Assembly: GCA_937141405.1 (NCBI GenBank)
Contig: CAKZQQ010000005.1
Span: 372,001-436,000, forward strand
Direction: 5' to 3'
DNA length: 64,000 nt
From: an uncultured Campylobacterota bacterium
GTDB taxonomy: Bacteria; Campylobacterota; Campylobacteria; Campylobacterales; Sulfurovaceae
Both the position numbers and the translations under genes were made by a program. Positions 3,942 to 47,920 of the stretch are shown one piece after another. Each line of letters opens with the position of its first letter. Position 1 is the first letter of the stretch. The notes under the pieces were generated by a model. That model was given only the letters and a program-made list of their open reading frames with translations, was not told the origin of the DNA and made no database searches.

Positions 3942-3951
3942 CCCCCCCCCC
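3942..3951 (+). repeat. Homopolymer tract of ten C
   Basis: An uninterrupted run of ten cytosines ten bases after the stop codon of the superoxide reductase gene, just past a small hairpin over that stop (AGAAGC/GCTTCT at 3923-3938). Such tracts are slippage-prone and are the usual phase-variation device in Campylobacterota, but here it lies outside any reading frame. Confidence 0.9.
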
Positions 3952-40628: not shown

Positions 40629-43322
40629 TTATTTCAACTCGCCCCAATTATCACCGATACTCACACTGCATTCAAGAGGGATAGAGAGCTCATAGATATG
40701 CTCCATCGCATGGGCAAATTTTTGAGCCAAATCCTCAGCCACACCCTCTTTGACTTCAAAGATAAGCTCATCGTGTATCTGCAAAAGTAGCGTTGCATCA
40801 AGTTGTTCTTCCATGATCATACTATCGATAAGATTCATAGAGAGCTTGATAAGATCGGCTGCACTCCCCTGAAATACGGTATTGACTCCCTCTCGAAGAT
40901 AGGCAGCTTTTTCCATACCATTTGCATTATCATAGTCAAAAAATCTTCTGCGACCCAAAAGTGTAGAGACATACCCACTATGTTTTACCTCTTCTTCTAT
41001 CGATTCTAAAAAACTTTTTACAGTCGGGAAGGAGTTAAAATAGCTCACTATGATCTCTTTTGCCTCATTGGCACTGATGCCAAGCTCACCGGATAACTTG
41101 CGAGGACCCATGCCATACAAAAGCCCAAAGTTGATGCTCTTTGCAACATTTCTCTTCTCTTTGGCTTCACCCTCTCCAAAGAGCTTAAGTGCTGTTGCGT
41201 AGTGGATATCTTCTCTGTTTAAAAACGCCTCTTTTAGTGCCGTATCTTGTGAAAAATGTGCCAAAAGTCGCAACTCTATCTGTGAGTAGTCGATACTTAC
41301 GAGCTTGTAGCCCTCTTTGGCTATAAAGGCCTCTCTGATGCTTCTGCCAAGCTCACTGCGCACAGGGATATTTTGCAAGTTTGGATCTTTGGAGCTGAGT
41401 CTTCCCGTTGCCGTACCTGTTTGTAAAAATGAGGTATAGATACGATGCTTAGCGTCAAGAGAGCCAAGTTTTAAAAGAGGCTCTGCATACGTTGAAAGCA
41501 ACTTCTGATACTCTCTATACTCCAATATCTTCTCGATAATCGGATGCTCATTTTTGAGTGATTCGAGCACTGCTTCATTGGTGCTATAACCGGTCTTTGT
41601 CTTTTTCCCGCCCTTGAGTCCAAGGGTTCCAAAAAGCACATTACCAAGCTGTTGTGTGGAGCGGATATTAAACTCTGCACCACTCATCGCATAGATCTCT
41701 TTTGTGAGTGTATCAAGTTTTGTACTGAGCATTTGACTCAATTCTTTCAGCTTATCAAGATCAACTTTTATGCCCACACTCTCCATACGAGCAAGCACAT
41801 TTACAAAAGGATACTCCACATTTTTTGCCTCGATCAAAAGCTTATCCAAAGAGGCTAATTCCATCATATTTTTGAGTTTATGATACAAAAGATAGGTCAT
41901 CCACGCATCTTCTGCTGCATAAAAAGTTGCATCCTCTATGGATACGCTTGAAAAATCCTCCCCCTTCTTGACCATACTAGAGAAGGACTTCATCTCATAA
42001 TCAAAATGAATCTTTGCAAGGTTATCTAGCCCCACTCTGCTTCCCGGATTACTCAGCCAAGCAAGTAGCATCGTATCGGCAAATATCTCTATGGGCTCAA
42101 AGCCGTATCGATTATAGAGGAGGGAAAGATCAAATTTGAGATTTTGCCCGACAACTTTAGCATCAAATAGTTTTTTGATAGCCCCTAGTGCGTCCTCTAT
42201 GCTGACCTGATCACCAACGCCTAGATAACTATGTGCCACGGGGACATAATAGGCCCTGCTCTCATCAAGACAAAAACTAAATCCCACCAAAGAGGCACTC
42301 TTCGTATCGAGCGAGTTAGTCTCTGTATCAAAAGCTACGATGCTTTCATTAGTAATTTGCGAAACTATCTCTTGGAGCTTATCAGAACTATCAAGAGTAA
42401 TTGCCTCGAAACTAAAAGCACTCTTTTTAGGCTCAACGATAGGACAATCAGGCATCTGTTCAGGATTTTCCACCTTTGCTTTTTTAAGCGCCTGCCTCAT
42501 CTCATACTTCTCAAACTCATCGACAAGGCACGCTATATAATTCTTATCTTCAAAAGCAAACTTTTCAAAATCAAAGCCCTCATAGAGGTCTTGACGCATC
42601 CGCACCAAATCTCTCGAGAGAAAAGCATTCTCTTTGGACTCTAAAAGAAGTGTTTGCATCCGAGGCGTGCCTACATTTTCGATATCTTCATAAATCGCTT
42701 CAAGCGTACCATATTTATTGATAAGTTCGCTCGCACCCTTTTGTCCTATCCCCTTCACTCCGGGAACATTATCGCTTGAATCGCCCAAGATCGCTTGAAA
42801 ATTGATAAAGTTTTTAGGGTTAACTCCAAATTTTGCTTTACACTTCTCTTCGTTAATCTCCTCTTTTTTAACCGAATCAAAAAGCACGACAATCCCATCA
42901 TCTATGAGTTGATAGAGATCTTTATCGTGCGAGACGATACGCACCTTGATCCCCTCTTTTTTAGCAAGCGTCGTCACGGAAGCGATGATATCATCTGCCT
43001 CATACCCATCCATTGCGAGATTGGCAAACCCCATCTTCTCAACCCACTCTATAGCGATTGGGAGTTGTTTGACGAGATCTTCCGGTGGCGGTTGTCTATT
43101 TGCTTTGTAGTCGCTAAAGACCTCTTTACGAAAGGTATCGCCCTTGCTATCAAGTGCAAAGAGGATGTAGTCCGTCGCATGATCACGCCGCAAGGTATCT
43201 ATGAAGTTGATAAATCCCGTGAGTAATCCCGTCGGAAAGCCCTCTTTGTTTCTAAGAGGTGGCAGGGCATAGTAGGCTCGAAAAAAAAACCCAAATGTGT
43301 CTATGATGGTAAGCGTTTTCAT
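40629..43322 (-). CDS. polA: DNA polymerase I
   Basis: 897 residues with three activities in order: 5'-3' exonuclease (about 1-290; DGYEADDIIAS and GDSSDNVPGVKGIG), 3'-5' proofreading exonuclease (about 310-500; VAFDTETNSLD, QNLKFDLSLL, YAAEDAWMTY, so DEDD residues are intact) and polymerase (about 520-897; motif A VSIDYSQIELRLLAHFSQD, motif B KRNVAKSINFGLLYGMG, motif C LLQIHDELIFEV). It removes RNA primers and fills gaps. The gene follows the AT-rich DUF262-HEPN island on the same strand. Confidence 0.97.
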   Translation of the reverse strand: MKTLTIIDTFGFFFRAYYALPPLRNKEGFPTGLLTGFINFIDTLRRDHATDYILFALDSKGDTFRKEVFSDYKANRQPPPEDLVKQLPIAIEWVEKMGFANLAMDGYEADDIIASVTTLAKKEGIKVRIVSHDKDLYQLIDDGIVVLFDSVKKEEINEEKCKAKFGVNPKNFINFQAILGDSSDNVPGVKGIGQKGASELINKYGTLEAIYEDIENVGTPRMQTLLLESKENAFLSRDLVRMRQDLYEGFDFEKFAFEDKNYIACLVDEFEKYEMRQALKKAKVENPEQMPDCPIVEPKKSAFSFEAITLDSSDKLQEIVSQITNESIVAFDTETNSLDTKSASLVGFSFCLDESRAYYVPVAHSYLGVGDQVSIEDALGAIKKLFDAKVVGQNLKFDLSLLYNRYGFEPIEIFADTMLLAWLSNPGSRVGLDNLAKIHFDYEMKSFSSMVKKGEDFSSVSIEDATFYAAEDAWMTYLLYHKLKNMMELASLDKLLIEAKNVEYPFVNVLARMESVGIKVDLDKLKELSQMLSTKLDTLTKEIYAMSGAEFNIRSTQQLGNVLFGTLGLKGGKKTKTGYSTNEAVLESLKNEHPIIEKILEYREYQKLLSTYAEPLLKLGSLDAKHRIYTSFLQTGTATGRLSSKDPNLQNIPVRSELGRSIREAFIAKEGYKLVSIDYSQIELRLLAHFSQDTALKEAFLNREDIHYATALKLFGEGEAKEKRNVAKSINFGLLYGMGPRKLSGELGISANEAKEIIVSYFNSFPTVKSFLESIEEEVKHSGYVSTLLGRRRFFDYDNANGMEKAAYLREGVNTVFQGSAADLIKLSMNLIDSMIMEEQLDATLLLQIHDELIFEVKEGVAEDLAQKFAHAMEHIYELSIPLECSVSIGDNWGELK

Positions 43323-43373
43323 AAGGTCTCTTTTTTCTTTTATTGTAACTAAAAAGAGTTTAGAGTCTTGGGA

Positions 43374-43883
43374 TTATTTATATTTTTTATCTCTTAGTTC
43401 TTTATCAATGTTTTCTAATACTGGTATAATATTATTAAAACTATTTATCATTATTGAAGGGGAATCAAAAGTTCTAGTTACACCTTTCAAATATGTATGC
43501 GCTGCTCTATTTCGTATTTCTATTATATTTTTAAGGTTTTGCTTGAATAATTCTAATTGAAATTTTTTTTCTAATTTTTTTTCTAATTTCTCTACATCAA
43601 TCAAGCCAAGTAAGTTAATCAACATTGGTCTAATATTTTTGTCATACTGAAAACCATAATTAGGTCTAATAATCTTTTCTTTACAATGTTTTTTGTTCTT
43701 GGACTCTTTTAGGTTTCTATTTGCATGACGAATAATTATATCGTCAATAGTTTCTTCTATCCACCCACTAAGTTCTATAATTGCCAATTTAGAAAAATAG
43801 ATAGTTTTTTTTTGACTAAAAGAACTATTATACAGTTTATCTAATTCTTTTAAAGTTGATTCTATATATGTTTTTGCAATCAT
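43374..43883 (-). CDS. HEPN-domain protein, probable toxin or effector partner of the DUF262 protein
   Basis: A 169-residue all-alpha, lysine-rich protein. The RNase-type HEPN signature R-x4-H is seen as RNRAAH (Arg124 to His129) in KNIIEIRNRAAHTYLKG, with an upstream helix AIIELSGWIEETIDDIIIRHANRN (about 35-57), as in the MAE_28990/RiboL-PSP HEPN groups. HEPN proteins with this motif cut RNA in toxin-antitoxin and abortive-infection systems. Its ATG follows the DUF262 stop after three bases without a separate ribosome site, so translation is coupled. Very AT-rich compared with polA and uvrA, so probably acquired. Confidence 0.75.
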   Translation of the reverse strand: MIAKTYIESTLKELDKLYNSSFSQKKTIYFSKLAIIELSGWIEETIDDIIIRHANRNLKESKNKKHCKEKIIRPNYGFQYDKNIRPMLINLLGLIDVEKLEKKLEKKFQLELFKQNLKNIIEIRNRAAHTYLKGVTRTFDSPSIMINSFNNIIPVLENIDKELRDKKYK

Positions 43884-43886
43884 AAA

Positions 43887-44990
43887 TTAACCAAAAATTT
43901 CTTTTGCTTTATTGATACGAGCAAGAACTTTATCTTTTTGCGCCAATCCTTCTTTTAAATTCTCGACTGAAAATAACTCATTGCTTCTTAATGCAATATA
44001 TCGATTATATAATTTGGTGTCTGTTTCTTTTTCTAAATTATTTAAATTATTTGCAATCCCAACAAACAAAGCCTCTGTAGTAGCCTTACTTATTTTTGGT
44101 AAAGGTTTAGATTCCAAAATATTTTTATAAATTAAATCAATTGTTCTAAAAAATAATTCCTTAAATTTATTAATATTTTCATCTGATGTTTTTCGATAAG
44201 TGTCCATAAAATCATTTAGAAATTTTGACAATTGTCCCTTGTAATTATCCAAATTATATGTGAAAGCAATAAATCTCAATACAAGTTCTTCATTTGTAAA
44301 ACGATCTTTTTTATCGGGGTCAACACTAAATAATGAAACATAATTTTCATACTTAACCGCATCTCTCAAAAATGTATTAAAAACTCCATTATAAATACAA
44401 TTTCTTATTTCTTGATTTGTTAATTTTGTTCCACCTGTATTTAATCTATGAAATATAGTAAATAAGTATTCCATATGACTTTTTTTAGCATAATTACATC
44501 TAAGAACAGTTACTGGAATAACAGTATTTTCAACTTTATTAAAAAGATCGGGATATTTACTCTTTATGGTCAAATTGCTTTTACCGGAAATCCGATCATC
44601 AATATCCTCAAGTTTTGATAAAATCCATTCTTTAGTTGGTTCCTTGTCAAGAAATTTTACAGCACTTGCAATTCTTTGTAATCCATCAATGACAAAACGT
44701 TCTTGAGTTTTATAATCAAGGCTAATACACAAACTAGGAATTGGAAGTTGCTTAACAAGGGAGTCAATAAGTCTAGTTTGCATTGTTGGCGACCAAACAA
44801 TATCTCTTTGAAATTCAGGTTGAATTTCAAGTTGACCCTCTTTGTGCATTCGCAATAAATCAGCACATGATCGCAGTTCATTAAAAGCCACAATATCATC
44901 AGGTGGAACTTCTCCGAAATCATCAGTATCTAACTGAGCTTTTTCTAACTCTTCCAATTGTTCATCTAACTCTAATAAAGTATTTCCCAT
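43887..44990 (-). CDS. DUF262-domain (ParB/GmrS-like) protein
   Basis: A 367-residue protein. The DUF262 core shows LEIQPEFQRDIVW (residues 54-66; cf. QRxxVW) and FVIDGLQRIASAVKFL (99-114; cf. the catalytic/nucleotide DGQQR motif, here DGLQR), then a helical C-terminal part. There is no DUF1524 HNH nuclease as in full GmrSD; the nuclease role may be taken by the next gene's HEPN domain. AGGAG lies six bases before the ATG. Base composition is extreme: 12 G/C in 60 bases at 44161-44220, against 33 in 60 at 45361-45420 within uvrA. Related modules act in phage defence, but this pair's function is inference. Confidence 0.82.
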   Translation of the reverse strand: MGNTLLELDEQLEELEKAQLDTDDFGEVPPDDIVAFNELRSCADLLRMHKEGQLEIQPEFQRDIVWSPTMQTRLIDSLVKQLPIPSLCISLDYKTQERFVIDGLQRIASAVKFLDKEPTKEWILSKLEDIDDRISGKSNLTIKSKYPDLFNKVENTVIPVTVLRCNYAKKSHMEYLFTIFHRLNTGGTKLTNQEIRNCIYNGVFNTFLRDAVKYENYVSLFSVDPDKKDRFTNEELVLRFIAFTYNLDNYKGQLSKFLNDFMDTYRKTSDENINKFKELFFRTIDLIYKNILESKPLPKISKATTEALFVGIANNLNNLEKETDTKLYNRYIALRSNELFSVENLKEGLAQKDKVLARINKAKEIFG

Positions 44991-45055
44991 TAACCTCTCC
45001 TTATTTAAAACTTATAATTTATTATACTATAGCCTAAAACTCATTATAGTAATTT

Positions 45056-45073
45056 AACAATCTTATGATTGTT
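45056..45073 (-). terminator. Short stem-loop after uvrA
   Basis: AACAATC and GATTGTT pair exactly (7 bp) around a 4-base loop. On the minus strand it follows uvrA and A-rich sequence and precedes a weak T-rich stretch. Weak terminator at best. Confidence 0.4.
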
Positions 45074-45085
45074 TTTTGGAATTAT

Positions 45086-45103
45086 AAAAAAAAAGGGGGG
45101 GGG
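45086..45103. repeat. Homopolymer tract: nine A then nine G
   Basis: Nine A (45086-45094) run directly into nine G (45095-45103), ten bases after the uvrA stop and about 100 bases upstream of the DUF262 start codon on the minus strand. Such long G tracts are slippage-prone and used for phase variation in Campylobacterota. Confidence 0.9.
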
Positions 45104-45112
45104 TAAAAAGCA

Positions 45113-47920
45113 TTACTTCATCTCTTTTGCTAGATACTCTCCTGTATAGCTCTTTGTCTTTTTATAATTGAGTGCTAACTCTTTTGGTGTGCCCGTTGCA
45201 ACGATCTTACCGCCCTTATTACCCCCTTCAGGTCCCATATCGATGACATAATCGGCATTTTTAATCATATCGAGATTGTGTTCGATCACTACAACGCTAT
45301 TGCCAAGTTCTACAAGATGATGTAGTACTTTTGTGAGTCTATCGACATCTTCGAAATGGAGTCCCGTTGTCGGCTCATCAAGGATGTAGAGCGTCTTGCC
45401 CGTATCTCTACGACTCAGCTCTTTACTAAGCTTGATACGCTGTGCTTCACCACCACTCAGCGTAGTGGCATTTTGCCCAAGCTTGATATAACCAAGCCCG
45501 ACATCCACCAGTGTTTTGAGTTTCGTAGCAACTGCCGGAATCGATTTGAAAAACTCCAATGCACTTCCTGCACTCATATCGAGCACTTCCGCGATATTTT
45601 TGCCTCTGTAGAGCACTTCTAGTGTCTGTGCATTATATCGTGTGCCGTTACATGCATCACAAATAACAAGAACATCAGGTAAAAAATGCATCTCAATCTT
45701 GATCTCGCCCTCACCTTGACACTTCTCACATCGTCCACCTTTGACATTGAAAGAAAATCTTCCTGCTTTATAGCCGCGAAGTTTTGATTCCTTAGTTTGT
45801 ATGAAAAGTTTTCGTATCTCGTCCATCACACCCGTATAAGTTGCCGGATTTGATCTGGGTGTTCTCCCTATAGGGCTTTGATCAAGATAGATAACTTTAT
45901 CGAGATACTCTAGGCCATCTATCTCTACTCCATCAACCTTTTGTGCTTTTGTAGAGCGGTTAAGTGTTTGCAGTGCATTTGGCAGTAACGCTTGCAAGAT
46001 AAGTGTACTTTTTCCACTACCACTTACACCCGTCACACAGACAAAATTACTCAATGGAATCTTTGTATTGAGGGATTTGATATTATTGAGCTCAACACCA
46101 CCGATGGAGAGCCAATTTTTCTGCTCTCTATGATAATCAAACTCTATCTTTTTTTTACCCGTTAGATACGCCGCGGTGGATGTATCTGATTTTTTGAGCT
46201 CTTCAAGTGTACCGGCAAAAACAACCTCACCACCGTACTCACCGGCACCCGGACCGATATCTACGATGAAATCAGCCGATTCTATCGTCTCCTTGTCGTG
46301 TTCAACCACTATGACGCTATTGCCTTTTTCTTGTAGGGTTTTTAGCGTACGGATAAGCTTCATGGTATCGCGTTCATGCAAACCAATGCTTGGCTCATCA
46401 AGCACATAAAGCACGCCTGTGAGTCCTGAACCTATCTGTGAAGCGATACGGATACGCTGCGCCTCACCACCTGAGATTGTTCTCGCATCACGGCTCAAAG
46501 CGAGATACCCAAGCCCTACATCATAAAGAAAGAAGAGACGCTCTCTAATCTCTCTGAGGATAGAAGAGGCTATCATCGTTTGCTGTTCATTAAAATGCCC
46601 GAAACTCTTCTCATCCATAAAATATCTGTAGCTATCTTCTATCGGCATATCGATAATATCAGCGATATTTTTATCTCCTATCTTGACGGCTAAACTTTGC
46701 GGAGAGAGTCTATGGCCTCCACATTTATCACACCGTTTTTCAGTCATATAAGAGGTAATATCTTTCTCATCTTTAAACATATCATAGGCGATCTTTACGA
46801 TTCCGGGCCACTCTCTTTTGAGCGCATGGCGTTTCCAAGTAAAATTGACAATCGTTGAAGCCCCATAGAGAATCGCTTTTTTCTGATGCTCTTCAAGCTC
46901 ACCGTAAGGAACTTTGGTTGATATCCCTTGGCTGACACAAAAGGCATCGAGAAATTTTGCATAGTAGCTTTTGTTAAACCCATACACAACCTTGATAGCC
47001 CCCTTATCGATACTAAGCCCCTCGTCTATGATCTTATCGATATCAAGCACATAGCGTATGCCAAGGCCATCACAAGCACTGCAAGCGCCTCTAGGGGAGT
47101 TAAAAGAGAAATTTACAGGCTGCAATGGCTCAAAGCTTATCTTACAATCAAAACAGGCTAAATGCTCACTAAAATGGATATGGCTTTGCGTGCCAACCTC
47201 CTCGCTGTTGCTAATATCTATCTCAACCTCGCCATAACTCTCGCCAAGCGCTTTTTCTATATCGCTTGCTATACGCTCAAGATTTTCCTCTTTAATCACC
47301 ACCCTATCAACAACAGCTTTGATAGTATGCTTCTTGGTTTTACCAAGTTCGATCTCCTCATCAAGCCGTACCATAGTACCATCGATCATGGCTCTTATAT
47401 AACCTTTATGACGAAGGGATTCGAGCATATCTGCAAAAGTTCCCTTTTTCTCCCTGACTAAAGGAGCAAGGATAACAATCTTGGAGCCTATAGGAAGCTT
47501 CAGCACTTCGTCGATGATATCACTTGCGCTCATAGAGGATATCTTCTTGCCACACTCATGACAATGTTGCTCACCCACTCTTGCAAAAAGCAGACGAAGA
47601 TAGTCATATATCTCTGTGATTGTCCCAACAGTTGAGCGAGGGTTTTTAGAGGTCGTCTTCTGATCTATAGCGATAGCAGGCGTAAGCCCCTCTATCTTAT
47701 CGACATCAGGCTTACCTATCCTGCCTAAAAATTGTCGCGCATAACTTGAGAGTGATTCGATATATCTTCTTTGTCCCTCAGCATAGAGCGTTGAAAATGC
47801 CAAAGATGATTTTCCACTTCCGCTCAATCCCGTGATGACGACAAGCCTGTTTTTTGGAATCTCCAAAGAGATATCTTTGAGGTTATGTTCTCGTGCGCCA
47901 AAAACCTTTATATTATCCAT
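45113..47920 (-). CDS. uvrA: UvrABC excision repair ATPase subunit UvrA
   Basis: Damage-recognition ATPase of nucleotide excision repair, 935 residues. Two ABC ATPase halves: Walker A motifs [12 protein letters not shown] (about 32-43) and [12 protein letters not shown] (about 630-641), signatures [12 protein letters not shown] and [12 protein letters not shown], and Walker B IYLDEP-type [11 protein letters not shown] and [11 protein letters not shown]. Zinc modules: CHECGK...CFDCK region and [16 protein letters not shown] with CDACNG. Acts with UvrB/UvrC, not in the window. Followed by a stem-loop and homopolymer tract. Confidence 0.98.

Follow-up and report, generated by a model that had tools for sequence, protein, structure and literature searches.

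The PD-T4-2 operon in the uvrA-polA spacer

The window, meaning the entire 64-kb stretch of DNA that was analysed, belongs to a genome (G000) of 1.75 Mb that is assembled in 8 contigs and is 98% complete. Within it, uvrA and polA enclose a two-gene operon, and a compound homopolymer tract lies between uvrA and the first gene of that operon. Listed from uvrA toward polA, the features of this region are as follows.

45113-47920, minus strand: uvrA, whose stop codon is 9 bases from the tract
45095-45103: G9 run (C9 on the operon sense strand); the plus strand reads A9 and then G9
45086-45094: A9 run (T9 on the operon sense strand), directly abutting G9
45081-45086, minus strand: predicted promoter P1, a TATAAT box that immediately follows the T run, predicted start at about 45074
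45056-45073: 18-base dyad AACAATC-ATAA-GATTGTT, between P1 and P2
45043-45048, minus strand: predicted promoter P2, TATAAT, downstream of the tract
45021-45026, minus strand: predicted promoter P3, TATAAT, giving a leader of about 24 bases
43887-44990, minus strand: PD-T4-2_A, a DUF262/GmrSD_N protein of 367 aa (Pfam GmrSD_N, 1.6e-22; PADLOC PD-T4-2_A, 1.4e-162)
43374-43883, minus strand: PD-T4-2_B, a HEPN protein of 169 aa (PADLOC PD-T4-2_B, 1.1e-65)
43370-45116: segment of 1747 bases that does not align to the sister genome G006, with 27.1% G+C (window, 38.6%)
40629-43322, minus strand: polA, the right-hand neighbour, with an upstream TTACAATAAAAG region that is conserved in the sister genome

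The first-pass annotation had proposed a DUF262-HEPN defence operon at this position, and the strong PADLOC matches to PD-T4-2_A and PD-T4-2_B, on adjacent genes of the same strand that are 3 bases apart, bear this out. Judged by these protein models, the two genes downstream of the tract are PD-T4-2 (DUF262 plus HEPN), a known anti-phage system. The second protein also scores 27.6 bits against Pfam HEPN_RiboL-PSP, slightly below the 28.4 cut-off, while a PDB search with the DUF262 protein returned no match up to E 0.1. Deletion of PD-T4-2 from its native E. coli strain is reported to increase T4 plaquing (PMC9519451). The operon resembles PD-T4-2 of E. coli ECOR65 in that both protein models are matched strongly and side by side, but differs in that the phage block was assayed there, whereas here it is predicted from the genes. 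For GmrS, a review gives the motif DGQQR (PMC10952713), where the protein described here has DGLQR.

Within the genus, PD-T4-2_A was found in 1 of 11 genomes, G000 alone (E up to 0.001). Matches in Bacteroidota came from a peptide-pattern search that finds close relatives only: an Owenweeksia bin (L056) contains a relative of the pair at 78% identity, with both proteins confirmed, and a Draconibacterium bin contains a gene that is cut by a contig end and is 81% identical over the best segment. In the Owenweeksia bin (L056:5500-7979), the pair is flanked by GTTGGGC and GCCCAAC, which we take to be an attC-like motif, as if it were carried as an integron gene cassette. A plasmid search gave six records, each covering 4-8% of the query at its uvrA end. 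Separately, the solved-structure relatives of a CcsBA-like protein are cytochrome c biogenesis proteins; structure 7s9y is presumably the Helicobacter hepaticus protein.

The gene uvrA is present in 11 of 11 genus genomes, and its C-terminal 195 aa are 98% identical in the sister genome. Alignment of the two genomes runs up to 45117 and resumes at 43369, just before polA. In place of the cassette, the sister genome carries a gene of the RelE type, with a score of 32.9 bits against a cut-off of 27, preceded by a small gene for which no match above cut-off was obtained. Because clear homology stops 13 bases short of the tract, the latter lies at the left edge of the replaced segment, and its earlier placement at the edge of an island therefore holds. 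By eye, the alignment can be extended along the sister flank to TACC at the first bases of the tract, a match that 5 of 2000 shuffles equalled and whose end point was picked after inspection. In all ten of the other genus genomes, the 500 bases that follow uvrA are free of G/C runs of at least 7.

The content of the uvrA-polA spacer (window 43322-45113; L017-L026) varies across the genus, ranging from PD-T4-2 and the RelE-type pair to a single open reading frame (ORF) or none. In six relatives, polA follows uvrA after 44-125 bases. The gap measures 728 bases and holds two genes in G006; in G007 it is 458 bases long and contains an ORF of 118 aa, and in G008 it spans 461 bases with no ORF of at least 60 aa from ATG; in G004, polA was not found within 1485 bases after uvrA.

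The A9G9 tract and the predicted promoters beside it

The plus strand does read A9-G9 at 45086-45103, as first annotated, and the tract is thus C9T9 on the gene-sense strand. It had been placed about 100 bases upstream of the DUF262 start and downstream of uvrA; the measured distances are 95 bases to the ATG at 44990 and 9 bases from the uvrA stop codon. No other G run in the window reaches 7 bases, and among C runs a single one does, a C10 at 3942-3951 (G000:C5:375942-375951), which lies 9 bases past the stop of a 128-aa ORF, presumably soxZ-like, with convergent genes on either side.

The whole genome contains eight G/C runs of at least 7 (lengths 7, 7, 7, 7, 9, 9, 10 and 10, with none of 8), compared with expectations per genome of 21 runs of at least 7, 0.74 runs of at least 9 and 1.5e-5 A9G9 tracts (Markov-1, window composition). 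Long G/C runs thus exceed expectation and shorter ones do not, and the estimate of 1.5e-5 rules out a chance origin of A9G9. All four runs of at least 9 are intergenic. Two of the three besides A9G9 sit between convergent gene ends and, being so placed, switch no promoter. Elsewhere in the genus (ten genomes), most G/C runs of at least 8 are exactly 8 bases long, runs of 9 are less frequent, and lengths 11 and 13 are each represented by a single run (overlapping matches), so that the genus-wide lengths look less striking than those in G000.

Poly-A and poly-G artefacts of adapters or sequencers are a possible source of such runs. This explanation is rejected because the tract is internal to its contig (G000:C5:417095 of 789,341) and continues on one side into conserved uvrA; moreover, assemblies that consist of one or two contigs (G115, G160 and G212) contain compound tracts as well.

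The annotation had also pointed out that slippage makes long G tracts variable in length in Campylobacterota. Its G9 run satisfies the slip length used in Campylobacter practice, at least 7 G/C (PMC6321876), and MutS_I, the MutS N-terminal domain and the only MutS domain searched, was not found in G000, in a search that was positive in 11 of 14 control genomes. In Campylobacter, 53% of poly-G/C tracts are reported to be of length 9 and 26% of length 10, with 77% lying within reading frames (PMC6321876). The G tracts of C. jejuni are reported to switch at about 1e-3 per division, and strain NCTC11168 has 29 poly-G/C tracts of at least 7 (PMC4965091). Length variation among reads is reported for every one of the 29 tracts described in Helicobacter canadensis (PMC2823697). 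The runs of G000 resemble these contingency tracts in the length class of G9, the genomic peak at 9-10 and the gap at 8; they differ in number (8 of at least 7, compared with 29) and in location, as 0 of the 4 runs of at least 9 lie within reading frames. Given a G9 run, no detectable MutS_I and a Campylobacter-like peak of G/C runs at 9-10, instability of the A9G9 length in G000 is likely. The tract is thus of a kind and length suited to slippage, and variation itself is predicted by analogy.

Downstream of the tract, a cluster of promoter-like boxes leads up to the operon, with three TATAAT hexamers in 122 bases where 0.32 are expected (P = 0.004, Markov-1 simulation). A consensus promoter scan listed none of P1, P2 and P3, which are predicted from their sequence. 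On the sense strand, P1 has the form TTTTTA-C9T8-TATAAT, in which the 17-base spacer consists of the two homopolymers only. Its -10 box matches the consensus at 6/6 positions. Upstream, the candidates for a -35 element (TTGACA) are TTTTTA, at 3/6 with a spacer of 17 (counted by eye), and TTTACC, the best scored, at 4/6 with a spacer of 15. The sigma70 promoters of C. jejuni and H. pylori, as described in PMC3847290, combine a gnTAnaAT box with a T-periodic signal at -17, -27 and -38 and lack a -35 element. The bases at these positions are T, C, T for P1, A, A, A for P2 and T, A, T for P3; thus P3 fits the Campylobacter-type signal as well as P1 does. The dyad at 45056-45073 is possibly operator-like or a hairpin. 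Folding of the 146-base stretch as RNA gave a structure no more stable than shuffles (z -0.26), and a scan of 43000-45600 found no terminator.

Comparison was extended to homologous DUF262 genes in the order. None of 29 such loci has a G/C run of at least 7 within 700 bases upstream of the match, although these loci are distant (28-36% identity), many of the matches begin inside the gene, which makes the 700 bases partly coding, and the L049 contig starts 185 bases before its match. The Owenweeksia locus, which is the closest complete relative (78%), has no such run in 8 kb. A conserved regulatory tract of the DUF262 family is rejected on the basis of the 29 distant loci.

Compound tracts in the sister genome and the family

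Five compound tracts are present in the species pair G000/G006, of which two lie at breakpoints, two do not, and the fifth has no usable counterpart. Besides A9G9, the second breakpoint tract is a C9T9 behind cspA in G006, where homology breaks off 2 bases ahead of the run; G000 carries instead a gene of 467 aa, which we take to be a sodium/solute symporter. The A9G7 that precedes a gene in G000 aligns unbroken to A7GAG7A in G006, and the A8G7 of G006 aligns unbroken to AAAGGAGAGAG in G000. Both are positioned before start codons with homology on both sides, and they look like Shine-Dalgarno purines that have grown by slippage and point change. No usable counterpart, but only short or paralogous pieces or none, was obtained for the fifth tract (A7G8, in G006) or for the G10 and C10 of G000, with G006 being 89% complete. 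Across the sister loci, such tracts come and go between G000 and G006. A copying scar at the island edge had also been suggested for A9G9. The position of A9G9 and the cspA tract at breakpoints agrees with this suggestion, but the unbroken flanks of A9G7 and A8G7 indicate that compound tracts are not only junction scars.

Two simple runs in G000 also bear description. A G9 at the Shine-Dalgarno position of a lipoprotein-like gene (L011:5471-5479; G000:C5:514970) is missing from the counterpart in G006 and may be more promising than A9G9 as a candidate for phase variation. A G10 (L009:5020-5029; G000:C3:75019) lies between convergent genes, in the loop of an inverted repeat of 9 bases that, as read by eye, is perfect (AACTATCTT / AAGATAGTT).

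Compound tracts show strict polarity across the 175 family genomes. C7T7, equivalent to A7G7 on the opposite strand, was counted 51 times, in 38 genomes, and the mirror form T7C7 was absent; T7G7 was counted 20 times, in 17 genomes, as a sum over control columns, and G7T7 was absent. On the G-bearing strand, the A or T run therefore lies 5′ of the G run in 71 of 71 tracts (51 + 20), and never 3′. Short forms were counted in 464 kb of family and order sequence, chosen around genes and tracts and with long G/C runs masked. Here C-T forms are hardly polar relative to T-C forms (231 vs 215 for n = 3; 30 vs 17 for n = 4). The G-T and T-G forms (207 vs 347 for n = 3; 19 vs 29 for n = 4) already lean in the same direction as the long tracts, so that part of the G/T polarity may lie in the seeds. 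Viral contigs hold both orders (at least 120 C7T7, 71 T7C7, at least 120 G7T7 and at least 120 T7G7), which excludes universality of the polarity; as three of these four counts are lower bounds, the viral scans indicate only that it is not universal.

Reading frames around 33 of the 51 tracts were assigned by simple ORF calling, with no gene finder, and 29 of the 33 tracts lie outside the frames so called. Seven, in the form AnGn, are 1-16 bases before a start codon. Nine are located no more than 10 bases after a stop codon, six of them reading CnTn and three AnGn in the sense direction, and four further tracts overlap a stop codon by one base, three of these being among the seven that precede start codons. 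Seeds in ribosome-binding sites can account for the tracts that precede start codons, but not for the remaining ones.

Origin and possible effect of the tract

Overall, A9G9 is an island-edge tract that is likely to be prone to slippage. The reading to which we give about half of our confidence is that it is a compound homopolymer at the PD-T4-2 junction, a by-product of junction formation and slippage that exerts at most a rheostat effect and is no dedicated on/off switch. The PD-T4-2 cassette would have been acquired in the uvrA-polA spacer, and the compound homopolymer would have arisen or arrived at its left junction. The tract would then change length at a high rate, like the G9 runs of Campylobacter. 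Because it lies just upstream of the TATAAT box of P1, such changes may weakly tune this distal promoter, while P2, P3 or read-through from uvrA would maintain a baseline that is independent of the tract. On this reading, the role of P1 would be minor.

A stronger effect on the operon would follow if C9T8 were the 17-base spacer of a phase-variable promoter, extending from TTTTTA to TATAAT, in which gain or loss of a base switches PD-T4-2 between high and low expression, as in porA and fetA of Neisseria. The compound homopolymer fills exactly those 17 bases up to the P1 box, no MutS_I was found in G000, and there is working precedent in gonococcal porA, with (T)9C(G)6, and fetA, with poly-C, between -10 and -35 (PMC5320596). 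The resemblance extends to a homopolymer within a promoter and, for porA, to compound T and G runs; the differences are that there is no clear -35 element here, that a Campylobacter-type sigma70 needs none, and that additional TATAAT boxes lie downstream. Switching of a defence gene likewise has precedent, in the phase-variable restriction-modification genes of Campylobacter (PMC6321876). Against this, the -35-like hexamer of P1 matches at only 3/6 positions (4/6 for the alternative at spacer 15), P1 was not listed by the consensus scan, and sigma70 promoters described for C. jejuni and H. pylori have no -35 element whose spacing could change (PMC3847290). Furthermore, P2 and P3 lie between the tract and PD-T4-2_A, no run of at least 7 precedes any of the 29 distant DUF262 loci or occurs within 8 kb at the Owenweeksia locus, and G000 has three further long G/C runs, two of which are at convergent gene ends. 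The promoter-spacing switch proposed in the first-pass annotation is therefore plausible, since the tract touches P1, but unproven, given boxes nearer the gene and a sigma70 of the Campylobacter type; we regard it as possible but rather unlikely.

The opposite view is that long G/C runs simply build up in intergenic DNA, where frameshifts are harmless, when mismatch repair is lacking, with no effect on the operon and with the junction as an incidental location. The intergenic position of all four long runs in G000 and of 29 of the 33 family tracts examined is consistent with such neutral accumulation, which nevertheless appears decidedly unlikely, as a TATAAT box abuts A9G9 and as polarities of 51:0 and 20:0 are unlike undirected drift of independent runs. 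It is conceivable, too, that C9T9 acts in the uvrA transcript, whose U9 would pause or end transcription and insulate the cassette. The tract does lie 9 bases past the uvrA stop in the C-then-T sense orientation, and several family tracts of the same orientation follow stop codons, sometimes behind a hairpin recognised by eye, as at cspA in G006. A transcript-end element of this kind is, however, very improbable here: the terminator scan was negative, no G+C-rich hairpin precedes the U run, and the fold is unremarkable.

A broader proposal, which we consider unlikely, is that the compound tracts of the family form a single polar class of common origin. They would be written by a process that has a direction, for example polymerase slippage that is polarised, or the processing of ends at repair junctions. 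This would sometimes happen at the joins of foreign cassettes, and one tract would have come to lie on a PD-T4-2 promoter; the operon would then be a candidate for phase variation of the spacing type in a defence system outside restriction-modification. A literature search, which was not exhaustive and so does not prove absence, found no papers describing polar compound tracts; nor did it find any that tie phase variation to PD-T4 systems. Should the tract prove to vary and to matter, phase variation would extend from surface structures and restriction-modification to DUF262-HEPN defence. Even otherwise, the strict polarity of compound tracts is a testable property of mutation in this family, and could mark junctions and start-site runs.
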